DNA from: Actinomycetota bacterium | GTDB lineage: Bacteria; Actinomycetota; Actinomycetes; Streptosporangiales; Streptosporangiaceae | NCBI GenBank assembly: GCA_021324595.1 | Contig: JAJPIV010000094.1 | Span: 1-54,382 of the forward strand | Length of the DNA: 54,382 nt | Reading direction: 5' to 3' | In this document: positions 7,251 through 52,442 of the stretch, piece after piece | How positions within the stretch are numbered: the first letter of the stretch is position 1 | How the letters are laid out: every line of letters starts with the position of its first letter | Notes under the pieces: model-generated | Database searches by the model: none | The model's input: the letters and a program-made list of their open reading frames with translations, nothing else | What the model was told of the DNA's origin: nothing | Made by a program: the position numbers and the translations under genes

Positions 7251-7251
7251 C

Positions 7252-30671: not shown

Positions 30672-30672
30672 G

Positions 30673-32297: not shown

Positions 32298-32307
32298 GGC
32301 GGCGGCC

Positions 32308-33162: not shown

Positions 33163-33196
33163 GGGACCCGCCTCCCGCACCAGCAAGCGCACCGCG

Positions 33197-33214
33197 TGCC
33201 AAATCCTTTTGGCA
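33197..33214. promoter_or_regulatory. LacI-type operator candidate
   Basis: TGCCAAATCCTTTTGGCA is an 18-bp interrupted palindrome (7 of 9 positions symmetric, TGCCAAA/TTTTGGCA), the shape of LacI/GalR operators. It lies between the LacI gene and the binding-protein gene, in an AT-rich patch unlike the surrounding DNA. Confidence 0.6.
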
Positions 33215-33258
33215 GACGCTAGGCGCATCCTGGTCCGGTGTCAAGAGCGGCGGCCCGG

Positions 33259-37075: not shown

Positions 37076-38040
37076 CGGGACCGCCCGGCGGGCGAGGTGG
37101 CCGGCTCGATCCGGGTCCCCTGCTCCGGGCCGGTCCCGGTGACGGTCGCGGCGAGCAGGGCGGGCGTGGTGATCACGGCGAGCTGGCCGCCCTCCCGCAG
37201 GAACCGCAGCGCCGCCTCGACCTTCGGCCCCATGCTGCCGGGCGGGAACTGGCCCTCCGCCAGGTGCCGGGCGGCCTCCTCCGCGGTGACCGTGCCCAGG
37301 GCGCGCTCGCGCGGGGTGCCGAAGTCGAGCCGGACCCGGTCCACCGCGGTGACGAGCAGCAGCGCCTGCGCGCCGAGCCGCGTGGCGAGCAGGCCGGCTG
37401 CCCGGTCCTTGTCGATGACCGCCTCCGCGTATCCGGCCGGCGCCCGGCCGCCGGGCGCCGGCGCGAGCGGGACGCCGCCGCCGCCCGCCGCCACGACGAG
37501 CAGGCCCGCGTCCACCAGCGCCCGGATCGCGCGGATCTCCAGGATCTGCGCCGGCGGAGGCGACAGGACGACCCGGCGGTGACCGCGCCCGGAGTCCGGC
37601 CGCACGGTCCAGCCCCGCTCGGCGGCCAGGCGCTCGGCCTGGGCCGGGTCGAAGAACGGGCCGATGGGCTTGGTCGGTACGGCGGACGCGGGATCGGACT
37701 GGTCCACGGCGACGTGCGTGACCAGGGCGGCGGCGCTGCCCGGGCCGCGGACCTCGTCGATCGCCCGGACGATGATGCTGCCGAGCGCCCCCTGGGTCAT
37801 CGCGTTCAGGATCGCCAGGGGCTGCGCGGGCACGAGCGTCGTGGACTCCTGCTGCAGCGCCAGGTTGCCCACCTGCGGCCCGTTGCCGTGGACGAGGACC
37901 ACCCGCCAGCCCGCGGCGATGATCGCGTCCACGGACGCCGCCATCTCACGGGCATTCGCCTGCATCTCCTCGCACGTGCCGGACTCGCCGGGCCGGGTGA
38001 GCGCGTTGCCGCCGAGGGCGATCACCGCGGTCTTGGACAT
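37072..38040 (-). CDS. arcC: Carbamate kinase
   Basis: The 322-residue amino-acid-kinase-fold protein starts with TAVIALGGNALTRPG and has VLVHGNGPQVGNLALQQE, a substrate loop DPASAVPTKPIGPFF, RRVVLSPPPAQILE, VVAAGGGGVP, AVIDKDRAAGLLA and GSMGPKVEAALRFL, matching catabolic carbamate kinases. These convert carbamoyl phosphate and ADP to ATP, CO2 and ammonia. The ATG at 38040 has AAGGATCTC upstream. It leads an operon with fdrA, so its carbamoyl phosphate probably comes from FdrA/DUF1116-dependent phosphorolysis of a ureido compound rather than from arginine; no arginine deiminase or ornithine carbamoyltransferase is present. Confidence 0.93.
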   Translation of the reverse strand: MSKTAVIALGGNALTRPGESGTCEEMQANAREMAASVDAIIAAGWRVVLVHGNGPQVGNLALQQESTTLVPAQPLAILNAMTQGALGSIIVRAIDEVRGPGSAAALVTHVAVDQSDPASAVPTKPIGPFFDPAQAERLAAERGWTVRPDSGRGHRRVVLSPPPAQILEIRAIRALVDAGLLVVAAGGGGVPLAPAPGGRAPAGYAEAVIDKDRAAGLLATRLGAQALLLVTAVDRVRLDFGTPRERALGTVTAEEAARHLAEGQFPPGSMGPKVEAALRFLREGGQLAVITTPALLAATVTGTGPEQGTRIEPATSPAGRSR

Positions 38041-39070: not shown

Positions 39071-40345
39071 ATGACCGGATCCACTGCCCCGGCCGCGCGG
39101 GGGTCACGTCCCGGCTCGCAGGCAACGCCCCCGGCGCCCGCGGGGGCCCTGTCAGGCGCCGCCGGGCCGGCCCAGCCCTCCCCGCCGCGGGCCGCCGGGC
39201 CGGCCCAGCTGCCGCCGGAGCGCCTGGCGCACCTGATCGCGGAGCTGCAGGGGCACGGGCTGCGGGTAGAGGTGGAGATGGAGCGGCGGCGCGGCGGGGC
39301 GGGCCCGGCGGACGCGGGGATGCTGTGGATCGACGGGCATCCCGCGACCGTGCCCACGTCGGCGCGGTACGCGCGCTCGTCGCCCTACGTGCTCCGTGCC
39401 GAGGACGACGGCTGGGCGATCTACCGGGACGGCGAGCGGCTCGCGCCGGCCGAGCCGATGCGCCGGCCGCGGTTCTACGACCTGGCGACCGATGACGGGA
39501 TCCCGTACTGGAAGATCGCGCTGCTGCACCTGGACTCGCTGGCCAGCACCGTCATCCAGACCTGCGCGTACTGGGGGAACTCCGACCAGTGCGCGTTCTG
39601 CGGGATCGGCGTGACGCTGGCCAACGGCCGGACCATCGCCAAGAAGACCCCGCGGATGCTGGCCGAGGTCGCCGTCGCGGCGCGGGACCTCGACGGCGCG
39701 GTCGACGTCACGCTCACCACCGGCAGCACGGCCACCCCGGACAAGGGCGCGCTCTACGTCGCCGCCTGCGGCCAGGCGGTGCGGGAGGCATCCGGCCTGC
39801 CGGTGGAGGTGCAGTTCGAGCCGCCCGGTGACCTTGCCGTGATCGACCGGGTGAGGGAGATGGGCATCGACTCGGTCGGCATCCACGTCGAGTCGTTCGA
39901 CCCGCGGGTGCTCGCCCGCGTGGCACCCGCCAAGGCCCGCACCGGCATCGAGGGGTACTTCCGCGCATGGGAGCGGGCGGTGGCCGCCTTCGGCCGCGGG
40001 CGGGTCTCCACCTACGTGATCCTCGGCATGGGCGAGGACCCGGACGTGACGGTCGAGGGCTGCCGCCGGGCCATCGACATGGGCGTCTACCCGTTCATCG
40101 TGCCGCTGCGCCCGACGGCCGGCAGCCTCATGGCGCAGGTGGACCCGCCGTCACCCGGCTACATGGAGTCGGTCTACCGCAAGGTGGCGCCCTACCTGGC
40201 CGCCCACGGGCTCGGCGGCCAGGGCGCGTCCGCCGGCTGCGCGCGCTGCCAGGCCTGCTCGGCGATCCGGCTGCTGGAGTCGGCGGAGGGGGGCGACGGC
40301 GGTGGCCCGCGCACCTTCCTCCCGCTGGCCGGCCCGGGCCGCTGA
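39071..40345 (+). CDS. Radical SAM protein, MSMEG_0568-like family
   Basis: The 424-residue protein has an atypical cluster motif CAYWGNSDQCAFC (Cys165, Cys174, Cys177, spacing CX8CX2C) in place of CX3CX2C. Further blocks are VDVTLTTGSTATPDKGA, PVEVQFEPPGDL, GIDSVGIHVESFD, STYVILGMGEDPDVT and VYPFIVPLRPTAGS. The C-terminus has a second cysteine group (GCARCQAC, about 389-395) that could hold another cluster. These features match the MSMEG_0568 family, the radical SAM member (NitD) of the nitrogen-starvation nitrilase cluster, whose reaction is unproven. The first 45 residues are a disordered Ala/Pro extension. ATG 39071 follows AAGTGAGGGGT. Confidence 0.88.
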   Translation: MTGSTAPAARGSRPGSQATPPAPAGALSGAAGPAQPSPPRAAGPAQLPPERLAHLIAELQGHGLRVEVEMERRRGGAGPADAGMLWIDGHPATVPTSARYARSSPYVLRAEDDGWAIYRDGERLAPAEPMRRPRFYDLATDDGIPYWKIALLHLDSLASTVIQTCAYWGNSDQCAFCGIGVTLANGRTIAKKTPRMLAEVAVAARDLDGAVDVTLTTGSTATPDKGALYVAACGQAVREASGLPVEVQFEPPGDLAVIDRVREMGIDSVGIHVESFDPRVLARVAPAKARTGIEGYFRAWERAVAAFGRGRVSTYVILGMGEDPDVTVEGCRRAIDMGVYPFIVPLRPTAGSLMAQVDPPSPGYMESVYRKVAPYLAAHGLGGQGASAGCARCQACSAIRLLESAEGGDGGGPRTFLPLAGPGR

Positions 40346-40823
40346 GCCCCGGCCGCGGGGGCCCGCGCTGGAGTGCCGGGCGGTCCGCGGCCCGGCCGAG
40401 CTGGCCGCGCACTTCCGCGTCCGCCACCAGGTGTTCGTGGCCGAGCAGGGGCTGTTCGGCGGGCCGGGCGCCGGGCCGGGCGCCGACCGGGACGGCCGGG
40501 ACGACGACCCGGCGACCGTCCACGTCATCGGCCTCGCGGGCGGCGTCATCTGCGGGACGGTGCGGCTCTACCCGCTCGACGGCAGCGCCTCGCGCTGGCA
40601 GGGCGACCGGCTGGCCGTGCTGGCCGGCCACCGCAGGCACGGCCTCGGCGCCCCGCTCGTCCGCTTCGCGGTGCGGGAGGCCGGGGCGCGCGGCGGGCGC
40701 GTCATGGAGGCCTACATCCAGCCGCCCAACGTCGCGTTCTTCGAGTGGCTCGGCTGGCAGCGGGCGGGCGGCACCGTCCGGTACGCCGGCATCCCCCACC
40801 AGCGCATGGTCATCGGCCTGTAG
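40302..40823 (+). CDS. GNAT acetyltransferase, MSMEG_0567 N-domain-like
   Basis: The 173-residue protein overlaps the end of the radical SAM gene by 44 bases if GTG 40302 is used; a later start is possible. It shows AELAAHFRVRHQVFVAEQGL, then HVIGLAGGVICGTVRLYPL, the acetyl-CoA loop LAVLAGHRRHGLGAPLVRFA, and YIQPPNVAFFEWLGW, the pattern of the MSMEG_0567 acetyltransferase (NitE). In mycobacteria this domain is fused to an AIR-synthase-like domain; here the partner is a separate gene on the opposite strand, 63 bp downstream and converging. The substrate is unknown. Confidence 0.83.
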   Translation: MARAPSSRWPARAAEPRPRGPALECRAVRGPAELAAHFRVRHQVFVAEQGLFGGPGAGPGADRDGRDDDPATVHVIGLAGGVICGTVRLYPLDGSASRWQGDRLAVLAGHRRHGLGAPLVRFAVREAGARGGRVMEAYIQPPNVAFFEWLGWQRAGGTVRYAGIPHQRMVIGL

Positions 40824-40886: not shown

Positions 40887-41858
40887 TCACGTCCGCATCC
40901 GGCCCGCGGGGCGGCGCAGGTTGGTCACCGACTCGCGGCTCAGGTCGAACGCGGTGCGGACCTCGCCGCCGCGCCGGAGCCGGACCTGGCCGGTGGCGTC
41001 CAGGCGCCCGACCGGCGCGGCCGTCAGCCCGCGCCCGGCGAACGCCCGCGCGCAGTCGCCCTCCCTGCCCTCGGGCACGCACAGCAGGAACGCGAAGCAC
41101 GGGAAGCACAGCAGCCAGCGCTCCAGGCTGACCCCCGCGGGGACCGGGAGCGCCCCGAGATCGACGGTCACGCCGAGGCGATGGCACTCCAGGAGCATGG
41201 CCAGCGAGCCGACCAGCCCGGCCATGCTGACGTCCTTGGCCGCCGCGATCCAGCCGTCGCGGGCGCCCTCCGCGAGCAGGCGCACGTCAGCGGCGAGCCG
41301 GCCGCCTCGCTCGGCGAAGGAGGGGAAGAAGGGGTAGTCCTCGCGCATCGCCCCGTCCAGGCAGCACGCGACCACCAGGGTCTGCCCGGGCTCGGCCCGG
41401 CAGGACGAGAGCGGCCGCTCCGCCCGGCCGAGGCCGAACGCGGACAGCGCCGGCGGGCCGTCGGTGATGGTGAGGTGGCCGCCGACGACCGGGATCCGGT
41501 ACAGCTCCGACGCCCACCGCATCCCGCCGAGCACGGCCCGCGCCACCGGCTCGGGGCCGGTGAAGGTGTCGACGATGGCCAGCGGCCACGCGCCCATCGC
41601 CGCGAGGTCGTTGGCGTTCGTGGTGACGGCGGCGACCCCCGCGCCGTGCGGGTCGGCGGCGACGAACGAGGGCAGGATCGCCTCGCCGCCGACGACCAGC
41701 TCGGACCCGCCGTCGCGGACCACCGCCCCGTCGTCGCCCGGCCCGGCCAGCCAGTCGGCGCTCTGGAGCACCTCGCTCACCAGGCCGATGGCGGCCTTGC
41801 CGCGCACGCCCGGGCTGTTCCGGATCCGTTCGACGAGGTCAGGCAGATCGGAGGTCAT
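40887..41858 (-). CDS. AIR-synthase-related protein, Sll0787-like family
   Basis: The 323-residue PurM-fold protein has GPGDDGAVVRDGGSELVVGG near the N-terminus (the usual GDDAA-type ATP/Mg segment), TTNANDLAAMGAWPLAIVDT, GGMRWASELYRIPVVGGHLT, and AAKDVSMAGLVGSLAMLLE, followed by a variable domain with LLCFPCFAFLLC. These match the Sll0787/MSMEG_0567 C-domain family (NitF), relatives of aminoimidazole ribotide synthase and selenophosphate synthase that activate an oxygen with ATP. ATG 41858 is preferred for its GGGG at 9 bases; ATG 41867 is the alternative. It is divergent from the ComA-like operon and convergent with its likely functional partner GNAT. Confidence 0.83.
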   Translation of the reverse strand: MTSDLPDLVERIRNSPGVRGKAAIGLVSEVLQSADWLAGPGDDGAVVRDGGSELVVGGEAILPSFVAADPHGAGVAAVTTNANDLAAMGAWPLAIVDTFTGPEPVARAVLGGMRWASELYRIPVVGGHLTITDGPPALSAFGLGRAERPLSSCRAEPGQTLVVACCLDGAMREDYPFFPSFAERGGRLAADVRLLAEGARDGWIAAAKDVSMAGLVGSLAMLLECHRLGVTVDLGALPVPAGVSLERWLLCFPCFAFLLCVPEGREGDCARAFAGRGLTAAPVGRLDATGQVRLRRGGEVRTAFDLSRESVTNLRRPAGRMRT

Positions 41859-41885
41859 CGCCACCATCCCCGGCCGGACAGCCGC

Positions 41886-41921: not shown

Positions 41922-42707
41922 ATGCCGCCGCCCGCCTTCCTCGACCTGCCCGCCCGGGCGGCCAAGCCGCGCCGCGCCGGGATCACGCACGTGCTCGACG
42001 GCGGGATGCCGCTCGGCCAGATGGCGGACCTGCTGCGCGCCAGCGCCGCGTTCGTGGACGTCTGGAAGCTCGGCTGGGGCATCGCCTACCTCGACCCGGA
42101 CCTGGAGGCCAAGCTCGAGCTGCTCGCGGCGCACCGGGTGCTGGCCTCGCCAGGCGGGACGCTGCTGGAGATCGCGTGGGCGCAGGGCCGCCTGGCGGAG
42201 TTCCTCGGCTGGGCGCAGGCGGCCGGCTTCCCGTGCGTGGAGGTGAGCGCGGGCACCGTCCCGATGGCCCCGGCGGACAAGCGGGCGGTGATCGCCGAGG
42301 CGAGCGAGCGCTTCATCGTCCTCGCCGAGGCCGGGGCGAAGGACCCGTCGGCCCGGCAGGCGCCGCGGGACTGGGCGCGCGAGGTGGCCGGTGACCTGGC
42401 CGCCGGGGCCACCTGGGTGATCGCCGAGGGCAGGGCGAGCGGCACGGTCGGCATCTACGACGCGGCCGGCGCGGTCCGCGAGGACGTGGTCTCGGCCATC
42501 GCCGAGGCCGCCGGGCCGGGCGCCTGCGTGTTCGAGGCTCCGCGCGAGGCGCAGCAGGCATGGTTCGTGCGCCGGTTCGGCCCCGACGTGAACCTGGCGA
42601 ACATCGGGCCGTCCGCCGCGCTGGGGCTGGAGACGCTCAGGCTCGGCCTGCGGGCCGACACCTGGCGGGCGGGCGCGCCCGCCCCCGCCGGCGCGCTGGC
42701 CCGGTGA
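41922..42707 (+). CDS. Phosphosulfolactate synthase-like (ComA family) protein
   Basis: The 261-residue TIM barrel has the ComA blocks RRAGITHVLDGGMPLGQM, FVDVWKLGWGIAYLD, CVEVSAGTVPMAPADKRAVI, WVIAEGRASGTVGIYD, VFEAPREAQQAWFVRRFGP and NLANIGPSAALGLETLRLGL. ComA adds sulfite to phosphoenolpyruvate in coenzyme M and sulfolactate synthesis, but no ComB/ComC phosphatase or dehydrogenase follows, so this homologue may add another nucleophile to PEP or a related acceptor. It begins a five-gene operon with 4-base overlaps (GTGA to the next gene) and is read from an apparent leaderless promoter. Confidence 0.88.
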   Translation: MPPPAFLDLPARAAKPRRAGITHVLDGGMPLGQMADLLRASAAFVDVWKLGWGIAYLDPDLEAKLELLAAHRVLASPGGTLLEIAWAQGRLAEFLGWAQAAGFPCVEVSAGTVPMAPADKRAVIAEASERFIVLAEAGAKDPSARQAPRDWAREVAGDLAAGATWVIAEGRASGTVGIYDAAGAVREDVVSAIAEAAGPGACVFEAPREAQQAWFVRRFGPDVNLANIGPSAALGLETLRLGLRADTWRAGAPAPAGALAR

Positions 42708-43696
42708 CCGGCGCGGTGAACCTGACCGCCGACCGGTACCGCGGCGTGAGCCTGGCCGCCGTCCCCGTGCCGCTGGACGAGGACGGCCTGCGCGGCTACT
42801 TCACCGGCCGGCCGGCCTACCGCCGCACCCGGTACATCGTCGTGCGGGCCGCCGGGCAGGACGCTGCGGCATCCGCGGCTGCCGCCGGCGAGGCGGCCGG
42901 GCGCGGCCGGACCGCCGTCGTCGAGGTGGGCAAGGAGTCGGACGGGCCGTTGTTCTCCCCGATCGTCACGGTCACCCTGCTGGCCGGGCCGGAGGAGACC
43001 GCGTTCGTCGAGGCGCCGGAGGCCGACGTCGGCATCCCGACCCTCCTGGCCAAGGTCGCGGCGGGCCGGGCCCCGTGGGCGCGGTGCGTGGTCGTCCGCG
43101 GCAGGTACGGGCACGTCGGGTTCATCGCCGACCCGGAGCCGGTCCGGGTCACGGTCGTGGACGTGGTGCCCCCGTTCCCGGCCAAGCTCGCCGACCAGGC
43201 GGGCCGGGTGCTGGACCTGGCCGAGGACCTCCCGCCGGTGGAGCTGCGGCCCGAGGCCACCGACCTGCGCTCGCTGGCCGCCACGGCCCCGGCCGCCCAC
43301 TACCTGTTCCCCTGCCGGGCCGGGTCGGCCGGCGGCCAGGCCGGCCCGGGGGACGCGGGGGACGAGCCGCCCGGGCTGGCCGCCACGGTCTCCTACCTCG
43401 ACGAGGTCCCCGAGCCGGCCGAGTGGACCCTGGTGGGGTGCGAGCGTTCGCGTGCCATCCACGACTGGTTCTACCGCAGGGACGTGCCGGTGGTGGACAT
43501 GTGCCCCCGGGCACTCGCCGTGCGCGCGCTGCGCGCCGGGAGGCTGCTGCCGCCCGTGCTCACCAAGTGCTGCCTGCTCGAGGACCGCGTCCGCGCCGAG
43601 GACGGCCTGGTGGTGGTGCCCTGGGGCGCCAGCCTCGCCCAGGTGCGCGACGGCCTGGCCCTGGCGGCCGGCGGCCGGGGGCACGCGGCGCCATGA
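42704..43696 (+). CDS. Uncharacterised actinobacterial protein in ComA-lyase operon
   Basis: I recognise no catalytic family in this 330-residue protein. It begins YRGVSLAAVPVPLDEDGLRG, followed by RRTRYIVVRAAG, GRTAVVEVGKESDGPLFSPI, VTLLAGPEETAFVEAPEAD, then RGRYGHVGFIADPEPVRVTV and PPFPAKLADQAGRVLDLAED. The C-terminus has HDWFYRRDVPVVDMCPRALA and LTKCCLLEDRV with adjacent cysteines that might bind a metal. It has no signal or membrane segment. GTG 42704 overlaps the ComA-like stop, and the stop overlaps the next ATG, so its product is made in proportion to both neighbours. It resembles domains annotated as of unknown function in actinobacteria. Confidence 0.75.
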   Translation: MTGAVNLTADRYRGVSLAAVPVPLDEDGLRGYFTGRPAYRRTRYIVVRAAGQDAAASAAAAGEAAGRGRTAVVEVGKESDGPLFSPIVTVTLLAGPEETAFVEAPEADVGIPTLLAKVAAGRAPWARCVVVRGRYGHVGFIADPEPVRVTVVDVVPPFPAKLADQAGRVLDLAEDLPPVELRPEATDLRSLAATAPAAHYLFPCRAGSAGGQAGPGDAGDEPPGLAATVSYLDEVPEPAEWTLVGCERSRAIHDWFYRRDVPVVDMCPRALAVRALRAGRLLPPVLTKCCLLEDRVRAEDGLVVVPWGASLAQVRDGLALAAGGRGHAAP

Positions 43697-45090
43697 CCGG
43701 CCGGATCACCGACTCGGCGTTGCACGGGCACCTGTGGGGCACCGACGAGGCGCGCGCGATCCTCGGCGAGCGCGGCCGGCTCCAGGGCTGGCTCGACGTG
43801 ATCGCGGCGCTGGCCCGGGCGCAGGCGGCCGAGGGGATCATCCCGGCGGCGGCCGCCCGGGCGATCACCGGCCACGCCCGGGTCGAGCTGATCGACCTGG
43901 GCTACGCCGCCGAGCAGACCCGGGCGACGGGCCATTCCACGCTCGGCCTGATCCGCGCCCTCGCGGCCAGGCTGCCCGGGCACGCCCGGGAGCACGTGTA
44001 CGTCGGCGCCACGGTCCAGGACGTCACCGACACCTGGGCCGCGCTCGCGATGCGCGGGGTCGGCGCCATCGCCTGGCGTGACCTGCGGAGCGCCGAGGCC
44101 CTGCTGCTGGAGCTGGCCGAGCGGCACCGGGACACCCCGATGTGCGGGCGCACCCACGGCCAGCCCGGCAGCCCGGTCACGTTCGGCTGGAAGGCCGCGT
44201 CCTGGGCCGACGAGATCCGGCGCCACCTGGACCGGCTGCGCGAGGGCGCGCCCCGCTGGCTGGTCGGCCAGCTCGGCGGCGGCGTCGGGAGCCTGGTGTT
44301 CTACTCCGGCCGCGGCCTGGCGGTCCGGGCGCGGTTCTGCGCCGAGCTCGGCCTCCTCGACCCGGGCATCTCCTGGACCGCCGCGCGCGACCGGGTGGCG
44401 GAGTTCGGCGGCGTGCTCGCGCTGATCTGCGGCACCCTGGCGCGCATCGGCTCGGAGGTCTACGAGCTGCAGCGGCCCGAGATCGGCGAGCTGGCCGAGC
44501 CCGCCGCGGCCGGCGCCGTCAGCAGCATCACCATGCCGCACAAGCGCAACCCGGAGCGCAGCGAGCACCTCGACACGCTGGCCCGCCTCGCGCGGGCGAA
44601 CGCGGCCCTGCTCAGCGAGTCGATGACGGGCCAGCACGAGCGCGACGGCCGGGCGTGGAAGGCCGAGTGGGTGGCGCTCCCGGAGGTAAGCCTGCTCGCC
44701 GCGGCCGCGCTGGAGACCGCCCTGGCGGTGCTCGGCGGGCTCGAGGTGGACGCCGGGGCGATGCTGCGCAACCTGCGGCGGCACGGCGCGGCGGGCAGCG
44801 AGCAGGCGCTGGCGAGGCTGGCGCCGCTGATCGGCGGCCGCGCGGCGCAGGAACGGCTCCAGCGCGCCCTCACCGCGGCCGCGGAGCCGGGCGCGGGGCG
44901 GGAGGCCGGCGCCGCGCCGGAAGCCGTGGCCGGGCTGCTGCGCGAGGCCGGCGCGGCCGGCCCGGGGAGCGGCGGCGACGCGGCGGGCGCCTGGGCGCCC
45001 GACCCCGGTGCCTGCCCGCAGATGGTCGACCTGGTCCTCGCCCGCGCGGCGGCGGCCAGGCGGGCCGAGCCGCAGGAGTGGCCCCCGTGA
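43693..45090 (+). CDS. PurB/PcaB-like lyase of the aspartase/fumarase superfamily
   Basis: The 465-residue protein has the three conserved regions of the superfamily: TGHSTLGLIRALAARL-type C1 preceded by YAAEQTRATGHS, CGRTHGQPGSPVTFGWKAAS in C2, and SSITMPHKRNPERSEHLDT (about 277-295, with the mobile-loop serine) in C3. It is closest to adenylosuccinate lyase and carboxymuconate cycloisomerase. The last 60 residues are an Ala/Gly-rich extension not seen in PurB. Since it sits in an accessory operon next to a second lyase, it is unlikely to be the housekeeping PurB. It probably eliminates an amine or other group from a succinyl compound, releasing fumarate, or the reverse. Confidence 0.88.
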   Translation: MTGRITDSALHGHLWGTDEARAILGERGRLQGWLDVIAALARAQAAEGIIPAAAARAITGHARVELIDLGYAAEQTRATGHSTLGLIRALAARLPGHAREHVYVGATVQDVTDTWAALAMRGVGAIAWRDLRSAEALLLELAERHRDTPMCGRTHGQPGSPVTFGWKAASWADEIRRHLDRLREGAPRWLVGQLGGGVGSLVFYSGRGLAVRARFCAELGLLDPGISWTAARDRVAEFGGVLALICGTLARIGSEVYELQRPEIGELAEPAAAGAVSSITMPHKRNPERSEHLDTLARLARANAALLSESMTGQHERDGRAWKAEWVALPEVSLLAAAALETALAVLGGLEVDAGAMLRNLRRHGAAGSEQALARLAPLIGGRAAQERLQRALTAAAEPGAGREAGAAPEAVAGLLREAGAAGPGSGGDAAGAWAPDPGACPQMVDLVLARAAAARRAEPQEWPP

Positions 45091-46712
45091 CCGGGAAGCC
45101 GATGGCCGGCAGCCCGCCCGGCCCTGCGGCCGGCCGGGCACCCGGGCCGCCGGCCGGCCCCCCGTCTGGCCCCGCGGCACCCGAGCTGGTCGCGGCCGGG
45201 TTCGAGCTGGAGGTGGCCGACGCGCCGCTGCTGCACGAGCCGATCACGCTCGCCGACATCGCGCACGTCCTCGACCTGGGCATGGCCGGGGTGATCCCGG
45301 AGCAGGCCGCCCGCCGGATGCTCGCGCTCCTGCTGGAGGTCCTCGACATCCCGGCGGACCGGTTCCCGTACGACCCGGCCCACGGCGAGCTGTACAACTC
45401 CCGGGAGCGCTACTTCGTCAGCCGGGCCGGGGACCTGGCGGGATGGCTGCACGCCGGCCGGCCGCGCCGGGAGGCGATGCGGATCGCGTTCCGGCTGTGC
45501 CTGCGCGACGGGCTCACCGACCTGATGGCCGCCGCCGCCGCGCTCGCCGATGACCTGACGGCGCTCGCCCTGGCGCACACCGGCACGCTCCTGGCCGATC
45601 AGACCTACCTCCAGCACGCCCAGCCATCCACCTTCGGCCATTACGCCCTGTCGTTCGCCTACCCCGTGCTGCGCGAGGGGCGGCGCCTGGCCGCGGCGCT
45701 CGCGTGGGCGGACGCCAGCCCCGGCGGCGCGGGATGCGTGAACGGGACGCGGCTGCGCAGCGACCGCGCCACCATCGCGCGGCTGCTCGGATTCCGCTGC
45801 GTCGCCGAGCACACCAGGGACGCGATGTGGCAGACCGACGGCCTGTTCGACATGGTCGCGGCGGCGGCCGGCCTGGTGGTCTGCCAGGCGAAGCTGGCCG
45901 AGGACCTGGAGATCTGGGCGAGCCAGGAGTTCGACTACGTGAACCTGTCCGACGCCCACAGCCGGTCGAGCGTGCTCATGCCGCAGAAGCGGAACCCGTA
46001 CGCGCTGTCGATCATCCGGGGCTCGGCGGGCAGCATCATCGGCAAGCTGACGGGCCTGCTCGCGATCGCGAAGACCCCGTCCGCCAGGAGCGACAACCTG
46101 ATCTTCGCCTACGGCGAGGTGCCCAGGGCGCTCGGCCAGGCGGTGCGCACCACGGCCCTGACCGCCGGCGTCGTCAGGGGCCTGGAGGTGAACGCGGCCA
46201 GGATGCGGGACGCGCTGGACGCGGGCTTCTCCCAGGCGACCGACCTCGCCGAGTTCGTGATGCAGGAATGCGGCATCGACTACCGGACCGCCTACCGCGT
46301 GGTCGGCGAGGCGGTGCGGGAGGCGAGCGCCTCCGGCCTGCGCGGAGCCGACGTCGACGGAGCGATGCTGGACCGCGCCGCCGCCGGCGTCATCGGCCGC
46401 GGCCTCGGCCTGGCCGGCCGTGACCTGAGCGAGGTCCTCGATCCCTGGCAGATCGTGCTGAGCCGGACGGCGCGCGGCGGCGCCGCCCCGGAGGAGGTCG
46501 CCAGGATGGCCGGGCAGGTGCGGCGCGAGGCGGCCGAGCTGGCCGCCGAGGCGCGGACGTGGCAGGACACGTACCGCACGGCCCGGGAGGAGCTGCTCGC
46601 CGCGGCCCGGCGGTGCGCCGAGGCGGGCGCCTGGCCGGCTGCCCGGGCCGGCGGCCCGGAGGAGGACGCGCGCGGTCCCGGTGGCCGCGCGGAGCGCCAG
46701 AGGAGGCGATGA
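45087..46712 (+). CDS. ArgH-like lyase of the aspartase/fumarase superfamily
   Basis: The 541-residue protein resembles argininosuccinate lyase: ELYNSRERYFVSRAGDLAGW early, LADQTYLQHAQPSTFGHYAL as the C2-like region, and SRSSVLMPQKRNPYALSII (about 292-310) as the C3 loop with the catalytic serine. Known ArgH paralogues include EDDS lyase, so a C-N lyase acting on an aspartyl adduct is plausible. The first 30 residues are a Pro/Gly-rich extension. It is 70-80 residues longer than ArgH. GTG 45087 overlaps the previous stop; the stop overlaps the DUF1116 start. Arginine synthesis is unlikely because no other arg gene is near. Confidence 0.87.
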   Translation: MTGKPMAGSPPGPAAGRAPGPPAGPPSGPAAPELVAAGFELEVADAPLLHEPITLADIAHVLDLGMAGVIPEQAARRMLALLLEVLDIPADRFPYDPAHGELYNSRERYFVSRAGDLAGWLHAGRPRREAMRIAFRLCLRDGLTDLMAAAAALADDLTALALAHTGTLLADQTYLQHAQPSTFGHYALSFAYPVLREGRRLAAALAWADASPGGAGCVNGTRLRSDRATIARLLGFRCVAEHTRDAMWQTDGLFDMVAAAAGLVVCQAKLAEDLEIWASQEFDYVNLSDAHSRSSVLMPQKRNPYALSIIRGSAGSIIGKLTGLLAIAKTPSARSDNLIFAYGEVPRALGQAVRTTALTAGVVRGLEVNAARMRDALDAGFSQATDLAEFVMQECGIDYRTAYRVVGEAVREASASGLRGADVDGAMLDRAAAGVIGRGLGLAGRDLSEVLDPWQIVLSRTARGGAAPEEVARMAGQVRREAAELAAEARTWQDTYRTAREELLAAARRCAEAGAWPAARAGGPEEDARGPGGRAERQRRR

Positions 46713-48142
46713 TGGAACCAGCCGGCCCCGCGCCGTCCCTGCCCGAGGCGGTCGGCGTCGTGAACGTCGGGTTGTCCCTGTTCGCCGACGCGGTGGCGGC
46801 CCAGGGGGCGCCGGTGGTCAGCGTCGACTGGCGGGTCCCGGCGGGCGGCCGGCCGGACGAGGTGGCGATCCTGCGACGGCTGTACGGGCCGCACGCCGCG
46901 CGCATCGACGCGGCCAACAAGGAGGTGGCCAGGCGGCTCGACGCCGGCCAGCCGCTGCTGACCGGCGTGTCGACCGTGGCCGAGGCGGTGCCGGGGCTGG
47001 CCGGGCGGGCGCTGCTGCACTGCGGTCCTCCGGTCGAGTACGAGCGGGCACCCGACCCGCTGCGCCGGTCGATGCGGGCCGAGGTGGTCGCCGAGGGCTG
47101 GGCGGCCTCGGCGGCCGGCGCGGACGAGCTCCTGCGGTCCGGCCAGGTCTGGCTGGCCTGCGCCAACGACCACCGCGTCGTGGTGCCGATGGCGACCGCG
47201 CTGGCCCCCGGCGCGCCGGTCTACGTGGTCCAGGAGCAGGCGGCCGGGGCGACGGCGTTCGCCCCCATCTCGCAGGGACCCGGCGACGTGGCGTGGTTCG
47301 GCAGGGACAGCGACGGCGCGATCGCCCGGCTGGTCTTCCTGCGCGAGGTGGCCGCGCCCGCGGTGCGGCGGATCCTGTCCCTGGCCGGCCCGCTGGACGT
47401 GCTCTCGGTCGCCGCCCAGGCGCTGGCGATGGGCGACGACATCCACGTCCGCACGCAGGCGGCGACGAACCTGCTGATCCGGGGCTGGCTGCCGTACCTG
47501 GCCGAGCTGGGCGGCCGGGCCCGGCGCGAGTTCTCCCGGTTCCTGTCGGGCAACCACCTGTTCTTCCTGACCATGGCGATGGCCGCGGCCCGGGCGCTGA
47601 CCGAGTGGGCGGGCCAGGTGACCGGCTCCTCGGTGGTGACCACGATGGCCCGCAACGGCGCCACCTTCGGGATCAAGCTGGCCGGCTCGGACCGGTGGTT
47701 CACCGCCCCGGCCCCGCCGGTCGGGCACGCGCTGTACTACCCGGGCCACGGCCCCGGGAGCAGCGCGCCCGACATCGGCGACAGCGCGGTCCTGGAGCTG
47801 ACCGGGCTGGGCGCGGCCGCCGCGGCCGGGTCGCCCGCGGTCGCCCAGTTCGTCGGCGGGTCGATGACCGCCGCCGCGGCGCTGACCAGCCGGCTGGCCG
47901 CGGTGAGCGTGGCGCGGTCCACGCGGTTCAAGATCCCGGCCCTGGACATGGCCGGGACCCCGCTCGGGGTCGACGTGCGCAAGGTCGTCGAGCTCGGGAT
48001 CACGCCGGCGGTCACCACCGGCATCCTGGACCGCGACGGCGGCGCCGGGCAGGTCGGCGCGGGCGTGGCCGAGGCCCCGCTGGCGTGCTTCGCGGCGGCG
48101 CTAGCCGACCTGGAGCGCCGGCTCGCCGGCGGCGCCGGCTAG
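46712..48142 (+). CDS. DUF1116 (YlbE/AllG-like) protein
   Basis: The 476-residue protein begins VGVVNVGLSLFADAVAAQG and VVSVDWRVPAGG, and has DAANKEVARRLDAGQPLL, GRALLHCGPPVEYERA, RSGQVWLACANDHRVVVPM and YVVQEQAAGATAFAPISQGPG. Later come FFLTMAMAAARALTEWA, STVVTTMARNG-like SVVTTMARNGATFGIKLAG, and DIGDSAVLELTGLGA. These are DUF1116 hallmarks. In E. coli the homologue YlbE works with FdrA and YlbF as oxamic transcarbamylase. Here FdrA and carbamate kinase are in another operon of the same locus. ATG 46712 is chosen because GGAGG lies five bases upstream; ATG 46709 is directly adjacent. It overlaps the OsmC gene tail to tail by 42 bases. Confidence 0.9.
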   Translation: MEPAGPAPSLPEAVGVVNVGLSLFADAVAAQGAPVVSVDWRVPAGGRPDEVAILRRLYGPHAARIDAANKEVARRLDAGQPLLTGVSTVAEAVPGLAGRALLHCGPPVEYERAPDPLRRSMRAEVVAEGWAASAAGADELLRSGQVWLACANDHRVVVPMATALAPGAPVYVVQEQAAGATAFAPISQGPGDVAWFGRDSDGAIARLVFLREVAAPAVRRILSLAGPLDVLSVAAQALAMGDDIHVRTQAATNLLIRGWLPYLAELGGRARREFSRFLSGNHLFFLTMAMAAARALTEWAGQVTGSSVVTTMARNGATFGIKLAGSDRWFTAPAPPVGHALYYPGHGPGSSAPDIGDSAVLELTGLGAAAAAGSPAVAQFVGGSMTAAAALTSRLAAVSVARSTRFKIPALDMAGTPLGVDVRKVVELGITPAVTTGILDRDGGAGQVGAGVAEAPLACFAAALADLERRLAGGAG

Positions 48143-48538
48143 CACCACCTCGACCGGCGGGGCGGACGCGATCGTGTTCGACACGTAGCAGTGCGCCAGC
48201 GCGGGCCTGACCAGCGGCTCGATCAGCTCGGGGGGCGCGGTCGAGGCCACGGCCAGCCTGAGCCGGGAGAACCTCGGCCCGTCGTAGGTCCCGGTCGCGG
48301 TGACGGCCAGGTCGGGCAGCCGCACCCCGCGCTTGCCCGCCGCCCACGCCAGCGCGAGCGCGTAGCAGGAGGCCGCCGCCGCGAGCAGGTACTCGGTGGG
48401 CATCGGCCCGGCGCCGGTGCCGCCGGCGCTCACCGGCTCATCGACCACCAGGTCGAAGCCCCCGGCGGCGACCCGGCAGCGCCAGCCGCCCTCCCAGCGG
48501 GCGGTCACCGAGCTGGCGCCCGGCCGGCTAGCGGCCAT
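48101..48538 (-). CDS. OsmC-family protein
   Basis: The 145-residue protein has the OsmC/Ohr fold pattern: ARWEGGWRCRVAAGGFDLVV, DEPVSAGG, then PTEYLLAAAASCYALALAWA with the first catalytic cysteine, GVRLPDLAVTATGTYDGP and ALAHCYVSNTIAS with the second. OsmC proteins reduce organic peroxides using paired cysteines. The ATG at 48538 limits overlap with the accessory-protein gene to 11 bases; an in-frame ATG at 48619 would add a repetitive STAGA N-terminus encoded by the overlap. It is the last gene of the nitrile hydratase operon and might protect the cobalt enzyme's oxidised cysteines or act independently. Confidence 0.82.
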   Translation of the reverse strand: MAASRPGASSVTARWEGGWRCRVAAGGFDLVVDEPVSAGGTGAGPMPTEYLLAAAASCYALALAWAAGKRGVRLPDLAVTATGTYDGPRFSRLRLAVASTAPPELIEPLVRPALAHCYVSNTIASAPPVEVVLAGAAGEPALQVG

Positions 48539-48995
48539 CTCCGGCGCCCGACGGCGCCGCGGCGGATGGCTCGCGCCCGCCGTGCTCGCGCCCGCCGTGC
48601 TCGCGCCCGCCGTGCTCATGGCGGGCGTGGCCGCGATCCGGCTGGGCCGCGAGCAGCGCGGCCCGCTCCCCCACCTCCGCCTCGCTGACCAGGCCCGCCC
48701 CGGCGAGCGTGCGCTCGAGGGCGCGCAGCCAGCACCGGTAGTAGTTCCACTCCTCCTGGCCGGCCCGGTGCGCCTGCCAGTCGCCGATCTCGGCGATCAG
48801 CCGCTGCCGGAAGTCCTCCCAGGCGAAGTGCCCGGCCTGGTGCAGGGCCATCGCCACGCCGAAGGCCTGGCTCTCCCACGGCTCGGCGAAGACCAGCTCG
48901 CCATTGTCCCTGGGCGGCGCCGCCACGCCGGCGGCGTCGAGCAGGTAGCCCGGGTCCGCCCGGCCCGCCCGCCCGTGCCCCGGCCGCGCGGTCAC
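48528..48995 (-). CDS. Nitrile hydratase accessory/activator protein (P14K-like)
   Basis: The 155-residue protein is a beta-subunit-like chaperone: [40 protein letters not shown], and [20 protein letters not shown] followed by [12 protein letters not shown]. These match the activators that deliver cobalt to the alpha subunit by subunit exchange. GTG 48995 overlaps the alpha-subunit stop, the standard beta-alpha-activator order. The C-terminus ends with a histidine-bearing repeat (HGGRE three times) coded by a 15-bp tandem repeat; it may help bind metal or be incidental. Confidence 0.88.
48568..48619. repeat. 15-bp tandem repeat, three and a half units
   Basis: The unit GCGCCCGCCGTGCTC is repeated head to tail. 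On the minus strand it encodes HGGRE repeats at the end of the activator protein and, in another frame, STAGA repeats in a possible N-terminal extension of OsmC. Confidence 0.8.
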
Positions 48996-49582
48996 GGCCC
49001 GCTCACCTGGGCCACGCCCACCATCGAGTCCCTGGTCACCAGGGCGGCGAGCTCCTCCTCCGTGAGGCGCTCGGTGCCAGGCGGGCGCAGCGGCAGCACC
49101 ATGTACCTGACCTCCGAGCTGGAGTCGAAGACCTTGATCTGCACGTCGTCCCCGAGCACCAGGCCGAACTCCGCGAGCACCTGCCGCGGCTCGCGGACCA
49201 CGCGGGAGCGGTAGGACGGGTCCTTGTACCAGGACGGCGGCAGTCCCAGGACCGGCCACGGGTAGCAGGAGCAGAGCGTGCACACCACGACGTGGTGCAG
49301 CCGCGGGGTGTTCTCCAGCACCACGATCTTCTCCCCCTGCGCTCCCTTGAAGCCGAGCTCGGCGATCGCTGTCGTGCCGTCCGCCAGCAGCCTGGCCCGG
49401 TACTGCGGGTCGGTCCACGCCCGGGCGACCACCTTGGCCCCGTTCATCGGGCCGACGGACTGCTCGTAGGCCTTGATGAAGCTGTCCACGGTGGCCTGGT
49501 CGATCAGCCCGCGCTCGGCCAGCAGCGAGGCGAGGGCCTCCGCGCGCAGCGCCGGGTCCAGGTGGCTGGTCGCGGTGGTCAT
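48992..49582 (-). CDS. nthA: Cobalt-type nitrile hydratase alpha subunit
   Basis: The 196-residue subunit carries the metal-binding loop [11 protein letters not shown] with Cys101, Cys104, Ser105 and Cys106; Thr102 marks the cobalt type (iron enzymes have Ser there). Flanking blocks are [56 protein letters not shown] and [15 protein letters not shown]. The two metal-loop cysteines become oxidised in the mature enzyme. It hydrates nitriles to amides. It overlaps the beta-subunit stop by 4 bases, and no amidase gene is in the window. Confidence 0.97.
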
Positions 49583-50238
49583 GTCGCCGGCTCCAGGTAG
49601 GGCTCGAACAGGTCGATGGTGAGGCTGAACGGCTCGGCGTCCGGCCCCCACAGCTCGCGCGAGTCGAACTCGACCGAGTAGACGTACTGGGGATCCTCGC
49701 CGAGGAAGTGCGCCGCGCTGTCGGGGAAGACGTGCCCCGGGCCCTGCGCGGCCACCAGGCCGGCCCGGCGCCGCACGTACCGCGGCGCGCGGCAGTGCCC
49801 CGCCGGGTGCAGGTCGCGCACCCGCACCCGGTCGCCCACCGAGAACGCGCGCGGGCGGTCGATGGCGCGCAGGTTGCCGGCGCCGCCGGAGGCCATCTGC
49901 GGCTTGTGCGGCTCGGGCGGGGCCGGCTCGCCCGCCGCAGCGCCGCGCAGCCGCGCGGCCCGGGCGCTGACCTGCCCGGCGCTGACGATTCCGCTGTCCT
50001 CCAGCAGGATCTGCGCGCCGATCAGCCACCTGTTGTAGTAGCCGCGCAGGTACTCGCCGGGCGGCACCCGCTCGATGGCGTGGCGGAACGCGTGCAGGTT
50101 CGCCCCGGCGGCGCGGATCGCCAGCAGGCCGAGCGCGAACGCGGTGCCCTCCCACGGCTGCGCGAACGGGGGGCCGGCGTCGAGCGGGAGCACGTGCCCG
50201 AACCCCTGCATCCCGCCCACGTCATGGATTCCGTCCAT
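49579..50238 (-). CDS. nthB: Nitrile hydratase beta subunit
   Basis: The 219-residue subunit begins with the family start [16 protein letters not shown] and has [38 protein letters not shown] and, in the C-terminal SH3-like part, [20 protein letters not shown] and [17 protein letters not shown] 50238 is chosen because it gives the usual start, with AAGGGAG upstream. It assembles with the alpha subunit as an alpha-beta heterodimer. Beta-before-alpha order is typical of cobalt enzymes. A 73-bp gap separates it from the Sll0783-like gene. Confidence 0.96.
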
Positions 50239-50311
50239 GGCGGCTTGCGCTCCCTTCACGGGCGCCAGCCCCGGCGCCGGGCCGCGCGGGCCCGGCGCCG
50301 GCGGCGGCCCG

Positions 50312-50800
50312 TCAGACGGTCCAGGTGTTGAGCTGGAACGCCCCGGCCCGCCAGGCGGTCAGGGCGGAGTCGAGCACGTCGAGGGGGTTGAACGCCTGGA
50401 CGCCGTCGATCAGGTCCTCCTCGCGGAATCCGTACAGGGCGCCCATGGCGAACCGGCAGGCATAGACCTTGGCGCCCTCCTTCAGGAGGGTCTCGATCTG
50501 GCGGTTCACGGCCAGGTTGCCCGGGAACCCCTCGGTGCCGACCGTCGGGTAGCCGCGGGTGCGCGAGGCGAGCAGGACCCCCGGCCCGTACAAGATGATG
50601 GAGACGTCGAAGCCCTTGCGGACCAGGCGGGTCGCGGTGAGCAGGTTCACCAGCGACACCGAGCCCTCGAAGGGCACCGAGTGGATGAAGATGAAGGCCT
50701 TCTCGCCCGGGTTGGCCTGGATGTCCTCGAAGAGCTTCTCCTCGGTCTTGTACAGGGAACCGCCCGGCTCCGCGCGGGGGGTCTCGACGGTGATCGGCAT
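50312..50800 (-). CDS. DsrE-fold protein, MSMEG_0572/Sll0783-like nitrogen-starvation family
   Basis: The 162-residue protein has the blocks of the Sll0783 family: KLFEDIQANPGEKAFIFIHS, VPFEGSVSLVNLLTATRLVR, FDVSIILYGPGVLLASRTRG, EGAKVYACRFAMGALYG and NPLDVLDSALTA, ending NTWTV. Homologues (NitB) are the first gene of nit1 clusters and are induced by nitrogen starvation in cyanobacteria. The fold is shared with sulfur-carrier DsrE proteins, and Cys in YACRFA is conserved in the family. Its location directly upstream of nitrile hydratase genes is the strongest link between the nit1-like set and nitrile metabolism here. ATG 50800 follows AGGAGCAGCC. Confidence 0.88.
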   Translation of the reverse strand: MPITVETPRAEPGGSLYKTEEKLFEDIQANPGEKAFIFIHSVPFEGSVSLVNLLTATRLVRKGFDVSIILYGPGVLLASRTRGYPTVGTEGFPGNLAVNRQIETLLKEGAKVYACRFAMGALYGFREEDLIDGVQAFNPLDVLDSALTAWRAGAFQLNTWTV

Positions 50801-51107: not shown

Positions 51108-52442
51108 TCAGCCTCCGATCCGGGAGAGCAGGTTCTGCGCCGCCAGGGCTATCGGCTCGTTGAGCGCCCCGATCGGCGGCGAGTACACGTTCTCCATCGT
51201 CGCGAGCTGCCGGGCGGTGATGCCCGTGCGGACCGCCATGGCCAGGAAGTCCGCGCGCTCCTTGATGCCCTCGGCCCCGACCATCTGGGCGCCGATCAGC
51301 CGCAGCGACCCGGGCTCGGCGAGCAGCTTGACCCGGATCTTCTTCACCCCGGGGTAGTAGCGGGCGCGGGAGATGCCCTCGGCCACGCCCACCACGTGGG
51401 GGATGCCGAGCGCGGTCGCGAGCGTCTCGCTGAACGAGACGCCGCCGATCATCCATTCCCCCGCCACCATCCCCCACGGCACGCTCACCGGCTGGTAGGA
51501 CCTGCTCCCGCCGGCGGCGTTCGTCCCGGCCACCTTGCCCTGGGCGTAGGCGTGGCTGCCCGACAGGCCCTGGACCGGGATGCCGGACACGCTGTGCGGC
51601 ACCTCCACGCAGTCGCCGGCCGCCCACACGTCCGGCGTGGTGGTGGCCATGCGCTCATCGACGATCACCCCGCCGGCCGAGCCGGTCCTGATGCCCGCGG
51701 CCGCCGCCAGCGCCGTGTTCGCCTGCTTCTTGGTGCAGACCACCGCGAGGTCGCACGGGATCTCGCCGTCCGAGGTCAGCACGGCCGAGACGGTCCCGTC
51801 GCCGGCGAAGCCGGTGAGGGTGGTGTTGAAGTGCAGCCGGGCGCCCATCTGCTGCCAGGACTCCTGGACCGGCCCGGCGATGTCGGGATCGGTGGCCGCC
51901 GTCAGCGCCCAGGCACCGGGATCCACCAGGTGGGTCTCGATGCCGCGGTGGCACAGCGCGGTGACCATCTCCAGCCCGAGCGGCGACGCCTCGATCACGA
52001 CCGCCGCCTTGACCCGGTCCAGGACGGTGTCCCACTCCATGGCGCGGCGGATGTTCTTGACGAAGTACAGGCCGCCGAGCCCGGCGCCGGGCACGCCGGC
52101 GGGCGCGTAGCCGAATCCGGTGCAGACGATCAGCTTGTCGTAGCGGACCTGGCCCTCGCCGGCGACCGTGACCGTCTTGGCCGCGGCGTCCACGGCGGTG
52201 ACGGCCGTGGAGTACCTGATGTCGATCCCGGCGTCCTCGTAGGTCTGCTTGGTCGCCAGGAACAGGCGCTCGAAATCGGGGATCTCCTTGCCGTGGACGT
52301 ACGGGATGCCGCACGGGCTGTAGCCGACGTCCTCGAACTCGGTGTAGACGCGCACCTCGGCGCCCGGGTCGGTGCCCTTGGCTGCCCCGGCGGCGCCGAT
52401 TCCGGCGGCCCCGCCGCCGATCACCACGATTCGCTGCGCCAC
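51108..52442 (-). CDS. FAD-dependent pyridine nucleotide-disulfide oxidoreductase, CoA-disulfide reductase-like
   Basis: The 444-residue flavoprotein has the FAD motif VVIGGGAAGIGAAGAAKG, the single redox cysteine Cys44 in GYSPCGIPYVHGKE (as in CoA-disulfide reductase and NADH oxidase), a second nucleotide region AVVIEASPLGLEMVTALCHR in which the usual GxGxxG is altered (EASPLG), and FAD-binding TPDVWAAGDCVEVPHSV. A dimerisation domain follows (YYPGVKKIRVKLLA, MVGAEGIKERADFLAMAV). It may reduce a persulfide, CoA disulfide or O2. The altered NAD-loop glycine is notable. It leads the nitrile hydratase operon; GTG 52442 has AGGAGGG upstream. It is not the flavoprotein family usually found in nit1 clusters. 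Confidence 0.87.
   Translation of the reverse strand: MAQRIVVIGGGAAGIGAAGAAKGTDPGAEVRVYTEFEDVGYSPCGIPYVHGKEIPDFERLFLATKQTYEDAGIDIRYSTAVTAVDAAAKTVTVAGEGQVRYDKLIVCTGFGYAPAGVPGAGLGGLYFVKNIRRAMEWDTVLDRVKAAVVIEASPLGLEMVTALCHRGIETHLVDPGAWALTAATDPDIAGPVQESWQQMGARLHFNTTLTGFAGDGTVSAVLTSDGEIPCDLAVVCTKKQANTALAAAAGIRTGSAGGVIVDERMATTTPDVWAAGDCVEVPHSVSGIPVQGLSGSHAYAQGKVAGTNAAGGSRSYQPVSVPWGMVAGEWMIGGVSFSETLATALGIPHVVGVAEGISRARYYPGVKKIRVKLLAEPGSLRLIGAQMVGAEGIKERADFLAMAVRTGITARQLATMENVYSPPIGALNEPIALAAQNLLSRIGG

Follow-up and report, generated by a model that had tools for sequence, protein, structure and literature searches.

Coenzyme M Genes in a Translationally Coupled Operon

The contig JAJPIV010000094.1 (assembly GCA_021324595.1) of an actinobacterium of the family Streptosporangiaceae was analyzed over its whole length of 54,382 nucleotides, which is referred to as the window. 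At positions 41922-48142 it carries five open reading frames on the plus strand (41922-42707, 42704-43696, 43693-45090, 45087-46712, and 46709-48142), of which the first four are assigned as xcbB, xcbA, xcbD and xcbC, genes of the bacterial route to coenzyme M (CoM), and the fifth as the gene of the transcarbamylase subunit AllG. A five-gene coupled operon had been proposed by a reading of the DNA without database searches (the sequence-only reading), and it is borne out by the five plus-strand reading frames, the family identities and 4-base overlaps at all four junctions (GTGA at 42704, ATGA at 43693, GTGA at 45087, and ATGA at 46709). As 4-base start/stop overlaps are frequent in actinobacteria, a fixed stoichiometry of the five proteins is only inferred. 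The grouping itself goes beyond chance, as the same gene set recurs in dozens of loci.

XcbB belongs to the phosphosulfolactate synthase (ComA) family (PF02679, 253 bits). It reaches 225 bits against the archaeal ComA model TIGR03849, below the cut-off of 280, and its nearest solved chain is the phosphosulfolactate synthase 1u83. For the three following genes the best NCBIfam families are XcbA, XcbD and XcbC. The DUF7714 protein (265 bits) matches the XcbA family NF052538 with 276 bits at a cut-off of 150. Both lyases are members of the aspartase/fumarase superfamily; XcbD has a Lyase_1 match of 120 bits and reaches 551 bits in NF052536 (cut-off 600), XcbC, the putative phosphosulfolactate lyase, has a Lyase_1 match of 117 bits together with ASL_C2 and reaches 431 bits in NF052535 (cut-off 575). 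Compared with the proteins Xaut_5051-5055 encoded on pXAUT01 of Xanthobacter autotrophicus Py2, which we take to be the characterized xcb set, and with those of Nocardioides sp. JS614, the four proteins show identities between 37 and 50%: XcbB 39% (Xaut_5052) and 50%, XcbA 37% (Xaut_5051) and 40%, XcbD 42% (Xaut_5054) and 49%, XcbC 38% (Xaut_5053) and 46%, respectively. The order on pNOCA01 of strain JS614 is phosphosulfolactate synthase, hypothetical protein, adenylosuccinate-lyase-like protein, pyridoxal-phosphate (PLP) enzyme and argininosuccinate-lyase-like protein, and the window keeps this B-A-D-(E)-C order minus the PLP enzyme XcbE. In PMC8727900, XcbB1 is assigned the addition of sulfite to phosphoenolpyruvate (PEP), XcbC1 the elimination of phosphate to sulfoacrylate, XcbD1 the addition step and XcbE1 thiolation. 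Judged by its family, the ComA homologue of the window very probably makes phosphosulfolactate. That it might simply do so, with comBC elsewhere, had been named in the sequence-only reading as an outcome that would refute its proposal; the first part of this is very probably right, while the predicted route continues via XcbC and XcbD of the operon itself (no search was made for comB and comC).

The identity of the two lyases is also reflected in their motifs. XcbC of the window carries TYLQHAQPSTFGHY and SRSSVLMPQKRNPYAL, which resemble the sequences of Xaut_5053 and of XcbC from classical clusters, at the positions where an argininosuccinate lyase has AQPILLAHH and STGSSIMPQKKNP. The motif types TYLQxAQPSTFGHY and PQKRNPYAL are thus common to the window, Xaut_5053 and the XcbC proteins of the classical (type-1) clusters described below, unlike in argininosuccinate lyase, and motifs of XcbD are likewise shared with the classical xcb clusters. 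Six Lyase_1 matches were found in the genome of the window. Besides the two operon lyases these are four genes whose partial translations rank argH (contig C76), purB (C129), pcaB (C69) and fumC (C117) first, so that the operon lyases are extra copies and not the sole purB and argH of the genome, which agrees with the sequence-only reading. Its further suggestion, that an aspartate-derived, carbamoylated compound is built or dismantled via two fumarate-type eliminations, would agree with the superfamily of both lyases and with a carbamoyl-transfer subunit in the operon, which AllG indeed is. Yet XcbD and XcbC are the best-scoring families of the two lyases, and the residues of the ArgH motif are replaced by those of XcbC, so that this chemistry was rejected as extremely improbable; nor do the four genes lack a known pathway, as had been stated, since they correspond to the bacterial CoM route.

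XcbA was inspected further in an alignment of 18 sequences, in which the residues C204, C246, H253, C267, C289, C290, and E293 are invariant. The conserved cysteines and histidine suggest a metal or redox chemistry. An AlphaFold model has a mean predicted local distance difference test (pLDDT) value of 88, and of 91 for the C-terminal half alone. Foldseek returned no trustworthy match for the whole model or for the C-terminal half, the only one with E <0.001 being a weak match with a probability of 0.28. Alignments of the C-terminal half to HypD span 150-158 residues (e.g., Z 5.7, root-mean-square deviation 3.8 over 156 residues; Z 5.2, deviation 3.9 over 150 residues) and lie below the trust level.

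AllG, FdrA and Carbamate Kinase

The last gene of the operon encodes a protein of the family PF06545 (213 bits, cut-off 27), formerly DUF1116 and now named AllG, with an additional N-terminal domain (residues ~6-61). On the minus strand, 35528..37075 encodes a homologue of FdrA (AllF), which has NF004760 as its best family and covers the model positions 8-494 of 555, i.e., it is without the C-terminal domain, and 37072..38040 (start approximate) encodes a carbamate kinase (TIGR00746 305 bits, cut-off 358; NF009007 271 bits, cut-off 266). In Escherichia coli, AllF has 555 and AllG 419 residues and both are parts of one enzyme, the oxamic transcarbamylase, which is described as reversible and as requiring AllH (PMC11326118). 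In the window FdrA has 515 and AllG 477 residues. AllG residues 8-58 match the FdrA model positions 504-554, and an AllG profile matches the FdrA structure 3dmy at 421-476 and the uncharacterized structure 3clq from profile position 64 onward. Thus, one domain appears at the C-terminus of FdrA in E. coli and at the N-terminus of AllG in the window. As this domain moved between two proteins that form one enzyme in E. coli, AllG is predicted to work with FdrA. Compared with AllFGH and AllK of E. coli, a homologue of AllG and a carbamate kinase are in common, together with a protein that has FdrA as its best family but scores below cut-off; different are the position of the FdrA domain and that no AllH was found in the genome of the window. 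A second, distant AllG (38% identity) is encoded in the same genome on contig C62.

Distribution and Conservation of the Cluster

Among 396 genomes drawn from across the phylum, 10 encode XcbA, and so do 10 of 100 genomes of the family. Neighborhoods were compared by tblastn of the window proteins on these loci and on 80 named XcbA loci. The latter are the best-matching 80 out of 124 relatives. They stand nearest to the family of the window itself, which biases the sample toward window-like clusters, and several of them lie on the same contigs as loci of the phylum and family samples. Loci were labeled by matches within ~10 kb: type 2 denotes presence of AllG or FdrA, and the label 2/3 any one nitrogen-side gene with no classical marker. 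Among these best 80 loci, 56 are window-like (type 2), 18 are classical alkene/epoxide clusters (type 1), and six are unassigned. As many contigs are cut, all gene counts are lower bounds. The 56 type-2 loci hold at least 43 AIR-synthase-like genes, 42 OsmC, 39 CoA-disulfide-reductase-like flavoprotein, 38 AllG and 36 MSMEG_0572 genes, furthermore at least 29 GNAT, 26 regulator, 23 FdrA, 22 radical SAM and 22 carbamate kinase genes, and at least 20 of the MSMEG_0565-type glycosyltransferase, 19 AllH and 16 nitrile hydratase alpha genes. In many loci, as in the window, XcbC is followed by AllG. According to the record titles, carriers other than metagenome-assembled genomes (MAGs) include Pseudonocardia, Actinomycetospora, Nonomuraea, Microbispora, Sphaerimonospora mesophila, Geodermatophilus ruber, and Nocardioides guangzhouensis. 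Two records titled as Bifidobacterium breve MAG (L083, L086) hold the soil-type cluster, and these titles look wrong.

The operon might simply provide CoM for the degradation of alkenes and epoxides, like the clusters of Xanthobacter Py2 and Nocardioides JS614, with which it shares the biosynthetic proteins and the gene order; classical clusters also exist in the same family (e.g., L032-L036). The distribution of the epoxyalkane:CoM transferase (EaCoMT) argues against it. EaCoMT-like proteins with 47-60% identity are present in five of five type-1 genomes, but in none of the 21 type-2/3 genomes including that of the window; among these 21 the best single piece reached 108 bits and 35%. In the window's own genome no close homologue was found either, the best single piece (77 bits) being a MetE-like gene at 7252-8352. 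This gene lies in a stretch at 5571-8352 with a MetE-like protein (PRK04326 244 bits, cut-off 406) adjoining a 559-residue protein with a weak methyltransferase match. A quick XcbD tree places type 1 on one side of a branch (Shimodaira-Hasegawa-like approximate likelihood ratio test, SH-aLRT, 100) and the window inside a set of type-2 rows plus one unassigned row (SH-aLRT 99). That the 61 XcbD rows labeled type 2 form a single clade is rejected by an approximately unbiased (AU) test (p 1.5e-6), with two cut unassigned loci kept outside type 2. In contrast to the clusters of Py2 and JS614, the window genome has neither an EaCoMT-like protein nor XcbE, AllG is translationally coupled to the operon, and nitrogen genes surround it instead of epoxide genes. 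A role in epoxide metabolism was rejected as very improbable, given that all 21 type-2/3 genomes lack an EaCoMT-like protein (alkene monooxygenase was not searched).

The association with the nitrogen-side genes is visible at the genome level. In the 396 phylum genomes the radical SAM protein MSMEG_0568 is over cut-off in nine of 10 genomes with XcbA and in 13 of 386 without (Fisher p 8e-12; neither this nor the following Mantel values are corrected for shared descent). Within 26 genomes, AllG of the window-type score class (201-235 bits) is present in all 21 type-2/3 and in one of five type-1 genomes (G516), while allantoin-type AllG scores 278-333 bits and a few in genome G512 are intermediate. 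The distances of XcbD correlate with those of the AIR-synthase-like protein (Mantel r 0.83), AllG (0.75), carbamate kinase (0.74), FdrA (0.73), OsmC (0.71), radical SAM (0.69), MSMEG_0572 (0.59), and the flavoprotein (0.53); in all eight tests none of 2000 permutations reached the value. This bears on the possibility that CoM is only a redox thiol acting with OsmC and the CoA-disulfide-reductase-like enzyme, the nitrogen genes being linked to it by common regulation and not by chemistry. Of the 56 type-2 loci, 42 have OsmC and 39 the flavoprotein together with xcb, and neither was found in the 20 kb covered for each of three clusters that lack xcb. However, AllG follows XcbC so often and the gene distances track each other, whereas merely co-regulated genes would be expected to drift apart, so that this explanation is considered unlikely.

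The cluster may also be split or doubled. In eight Pseudonocardia loci that were traced further, xcb has no AllG in its vicinity (L053, also without AllG nearby, was left out), and AllG lies elsewhere in the same genomes. The eight second loci (type 3) hold AllG and carbamate kinase in all eight cases, the glycosyltransferase in seven, FdrA in six, nitrile hydratase alpha in five, and radical SAM and AIR-synthase-like genes in four each; the parts thus stay in the genome though on separate stretches. The classical genome G516 (locus L103), which has EaCoMT-like proteins, encodes two XcbA over cut-off, one on C133 and one on C8, of which one belongs to the classical locus L103. In addition it has a window-type cluster (L137, 7219-9751; Pseudonocardia MAG) with XcbB, XcbC and a short XcbA remnant but no XcbD and XcbE. 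L137 also holds AllG, AllH, OsmC, AIR-synthase-like protein, flavoprotein, MSMEG_0572, nitrile hydratase, glycosyltransferase, FdrA and carbamate kinase. In the simplest reading of this one draft genome other copies would supply the missing steps, which suggests that both kinds of cluster make the same product. Genome G424 has both kinds of cluster with all five xcb genes in each (L032, L038).

Some loci contain further genes. Upstream of OsmC and xcb, a LarC-like PF01969, a LarB-like PF00731 and a weak NAD/Asn-synthase match resembling LarE were observed (L054:4264-8190, L078:3365-4723, L045:5560-6480), families which we take to bear the names of the Lar (nickel-pincer-type) proteins and which recur in up to 15 Pseudonocardia and Actinomycetospora loci. 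Conserved families without Pfam match stand beside some loci (L050:7505-8134, L084:19115-19390, L080:5640-6329, L141:11385-12008).

Nit1C-Type Genes and Nitrile Hydratase

Upstream of the operon lie genes for a MSMEG_0568-family radical SAM protein (NitD-like; 39071..40345, plus strand; TIGR04043 386 bits, cut-off 304), a MSMEG_0567/Sll0786-type N-acetyltransferase (NitE-like; 40302..40823, plus strand; TIGR04045 74 bits, cut-off 68) and, divergent from XcbB, a sll0787-type AIR-synthase-like protein (NitF-like; 40887..41861, minus strand, start approximate), for which TIGR04049 is the best family with 247 bits at a cut-off of 321. Next to FdrA, a GT4 glycosyltransferase (PF00534; 34335..35530, minus strand, start approximate) takes the position of the MSMEG_0565-type enzyme of relatives (TIGR04047 in L026 and L030). 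Downstream and on the minus strand follow an OsmC-like protein (PF02566; 48101..48619, start approximate), a nitrile hydratase accessory protein (48528..48995, start approximate; TIGR03889 80 bits, cut-off 46), nitrile hydratase alpha (48992..49567; TIGR01323 298 bits, cut-off 250) with the motif VCTLCSC and solved relatives of the Co-type, nitrile hydratase beta (49579..50259; TIGR03888 196 bits, cut-off 152), a MSMEG_0572/Sll0783 family protein (NitB-like; 50312..50800; TIGR04044 204 bits, cut-off 110) with a conserved cysteine in YACRF, and a CoA-disulfide-reductase-like flavoprotein (51108..52442; best family TIGR03385 236 bits, cut-off 579) with a single active-site-type cysteine (YSPCGIPY). 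The regulator at 52545..53204 on the plus strand was judged by eye to be of the XRE-cupin type.

The Nit1C cluster of Pseudomonas (nitBCDEFGH) is tied to cyanide assimilation via the nitrilase NitC (PMC11049912). The radical SAM, GNAT and MSMEG_0572-family proteins (NitD-, NitE- and NitB-type), all over cut-off, are in common with the window, and the AIR-synthase-like protein, with the NitF-type as its best family but below cut-off, may be so too. Different from Nit1C, NitC (TIGR04048) is over its cut-off of 503 bits in none of the 26 genomes, the window's own included (best 246; NitG and NitH were not searched), and the cluster adds transcarbamylase subunits, carbamate kinase, CoM genes, and often nitrile hydratase. 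One candidate for a characterized relative was rejected: the nitrile hydratase of the Pseudonocardia thermophila cluster is not the enzyme of structure 1ire, which presumably originates from this species, as it scores 238 bits to 1ire and 293 to the best chain.

Two further features of the window are a homologue of cytochrome bd oxidase subunit I at 20387-21829, on the same contig as the operon, and a gamma-glutamyltranspeptidase adjoining an amino-acid/ectoine-type ABC transporter at 29100-33228. Cytochrome bd oxidases are often cyanide-insensitive.

A Putative Route and Its Alternatives

We consider it reasonably likely that the operon encodes the Xcb route to CoM, or to an immediate precursor, plus AllG and that the thiol serves the surrounding nitrogen module. 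The gene identities and their order, the conservation, the absence of EaCoMT and of NitC over cut-off and the relocated FdrA domain are observations; product, substrate and flow of the pathway are what we infer from them. By family, XcbB would add sulfite to PEP, XcbC would remove phosphate to yield sulfoacrylate, and XcbD would add a thiol donor. The last step, elsewhere carried out by XcbE, would here be done by another C-S lyase. The CoM-type thiol would be made for a conserved module whose nitrogen source is a cyano or carbamoyl compound: a carbamoyl compound may be prepared by the Nit1C-type proteins, assisted by nitrile hydratase in those clusters that have it, FdrA and AllG would phosphorolyze it to carbamoyl phosphate, and carbamate kinase would convert the latter to ATP, CO2, and NH3.

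Several observations weigh against this proposal. Although each has the expected best family, XcbC and XcbD stay below their NCBIfam cut-offs, and so does FdrA with 381 of 433 bits; XcbE of the classical locus L032 is likewise under cut-off (313 of 450 bits). XcbE was not found in the window or in its genome (best 34 bits, cut-off 450), a draft that is 97% complete. The product could thus differ from CoM and be another sulfonated thiol or a cysteine adduct, e.g., the product of XcbD. XcbE is also not found in the type-2 loci L052, L060, and L096, and a second xcbABCD-like set on pXAUT01 (Xaut_5067-5070; L162:26212-30820) has no xcbE annotated alongside and a disulfide-oxidoreductase gene near. 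On the other hand, XcbE stands between XcbD and XcbC in 45 of the 48 type-2 loci that hold both, so that the ancestral product was probably CoM and the loss of XcbE is probably secondary, in several lineages. For the intervening gene of L030, L037, L040 and of the classical L032, NCBIfam ranks XcbE first, in all cases under cut-off, and its absence in L024, L027, L028, L029, and L031 was judged from gap size alone. As another PLP C-S lyase could finish the route and the genome is a draft, a product other than CoM is a tentative, rather doubtful alternative.

On the nitrogen side, AllH was found neither in the genome of the window nor in six of eight type-3 genomes; it is present in 16 of 26 genomes and lies within ~2 kb of the window-type AllG in only eight. 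FdrA was not found beside AllG in two of the eight split second loci. Counted over whole genomes and not as the cluster copy, nitrile hydratase alpha is present in 15 of the 21 type-2/3 genomes and absent from six; the loci of four of these six (L072, L073, L080, L105) carry a PF04909 amidohydrolase, and two other loci carry both. Finally, three genomes (L140, L141, L142) hold AllG, carbamate kinase and Nit1C-type genes with no xcb alongside: xcb, flavoprotein and OsmC were not found in their 20 kb, and XcbA nowhere in the genomes. An aminotransferase and an amidohydrolase are present in all three clusters, a luciferase-like monooxygenase together with a PLP decarboxylase in two (named by Pfam in L141 and by similarity in the others), and perhaps these clusters use a different carrier. 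As the module occurs without xcb genes, CoM is not essential to it and seems to be one of several solutions that serve this nitrogen module.

In a more specific form of the proposal, CoM would act as a cyanide carrier. Cyanide, free or from a nitrile, would be captured on the thiol as CoM-S-CN, which nitrile hydratase, or perhaps the amidohydrolase replacing it in some genomes, would hydrate to CoM-S-CO-NH2; FdrA and AllG would then release carbamoyl phosphate and free CoM, carbamate kinase would form ATP, CO2, and NH3, and the flavoprotein would hold the thiol reduced. This would explain the co-occurrence of a thiol, a hydratase, a CoA-ligase-related transcarbamylase, and a disulfide-reductase-like enzyme. 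It is weakened by the patchy occurrence of nitrile hydratase, by the lack of XcbE and AllH and by the clusters without xcb, and it is put forward only as a speculative minor possibility.

The same genes could also be read in the biosynthetic direction, with carbamoyl phosphate carbamoylating the thiol and the AIR-synthase-fold protein dehydrating the product to a thiocyanate, as a small-molecule analogue of the cyanide synthesis by HypE. The AIR-synthase-like gene in 43 of 56 type-2 loci, the weak alignment of the C-terminal half of XcbA to HypD (Z ~5) and the reversibility of oxamic transcarbamylase (PMC11326118) fit this direction. However, the adjoining nitrile hydratase would undo the product, the nitrogen-starvation names borne by the MSMEG_0567/0572 families point to nitrogen uptake, and clusters that have no CoM genes contain AIR-synthase-like genes too, which makes the synthesis of a thiocyanate improbable.

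Significance

To our knowledge, bacterial CoM is known solely from alkene/epoxide degradation. What is new is not most of the operon pathway but its context, i.e., a conserved cluster that links CoM genes with FdrA, carbamate kinase, Nit1C-type genes, OsmC, flavoprotein and regulator, and often with nitrile hydratase. Of the undescribed chemistry expected by the sequence-only reading, the part in the operon itself turned out to be largely known; the wider cluster points to an undescribed physiology. No paper joining CoM to Nit1C or to nitrile nitrogen was found in the literature searched, most subscription journals being outside its scope.

The cluster is common to many soil actinobacteria and seems to tie the rare sulfur cofactor CoM to cyanide- or nitrile-type nitrogen metabolism. 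If the cyanide-carrier form were true, it would constitute an energy-conserving pathway for nitrogen from cyanide or nitriles and a role of bacterial CoM outside epoxides. The transcarbamylase subunits beside CoM and Nit1C-type genes would point to a class of substrates that can be tested for the Nit1C-type genes, so far unexplained, and XcbA gains a second context for finding its reaction. Furthermore, the presence of CoM would be predicted in many culturable actinobacteria, such as Pseudonocardia, Actinomycetospora, Nonomuraea, Microbispora, Sphaerimonospora, and Geodermatophilus.

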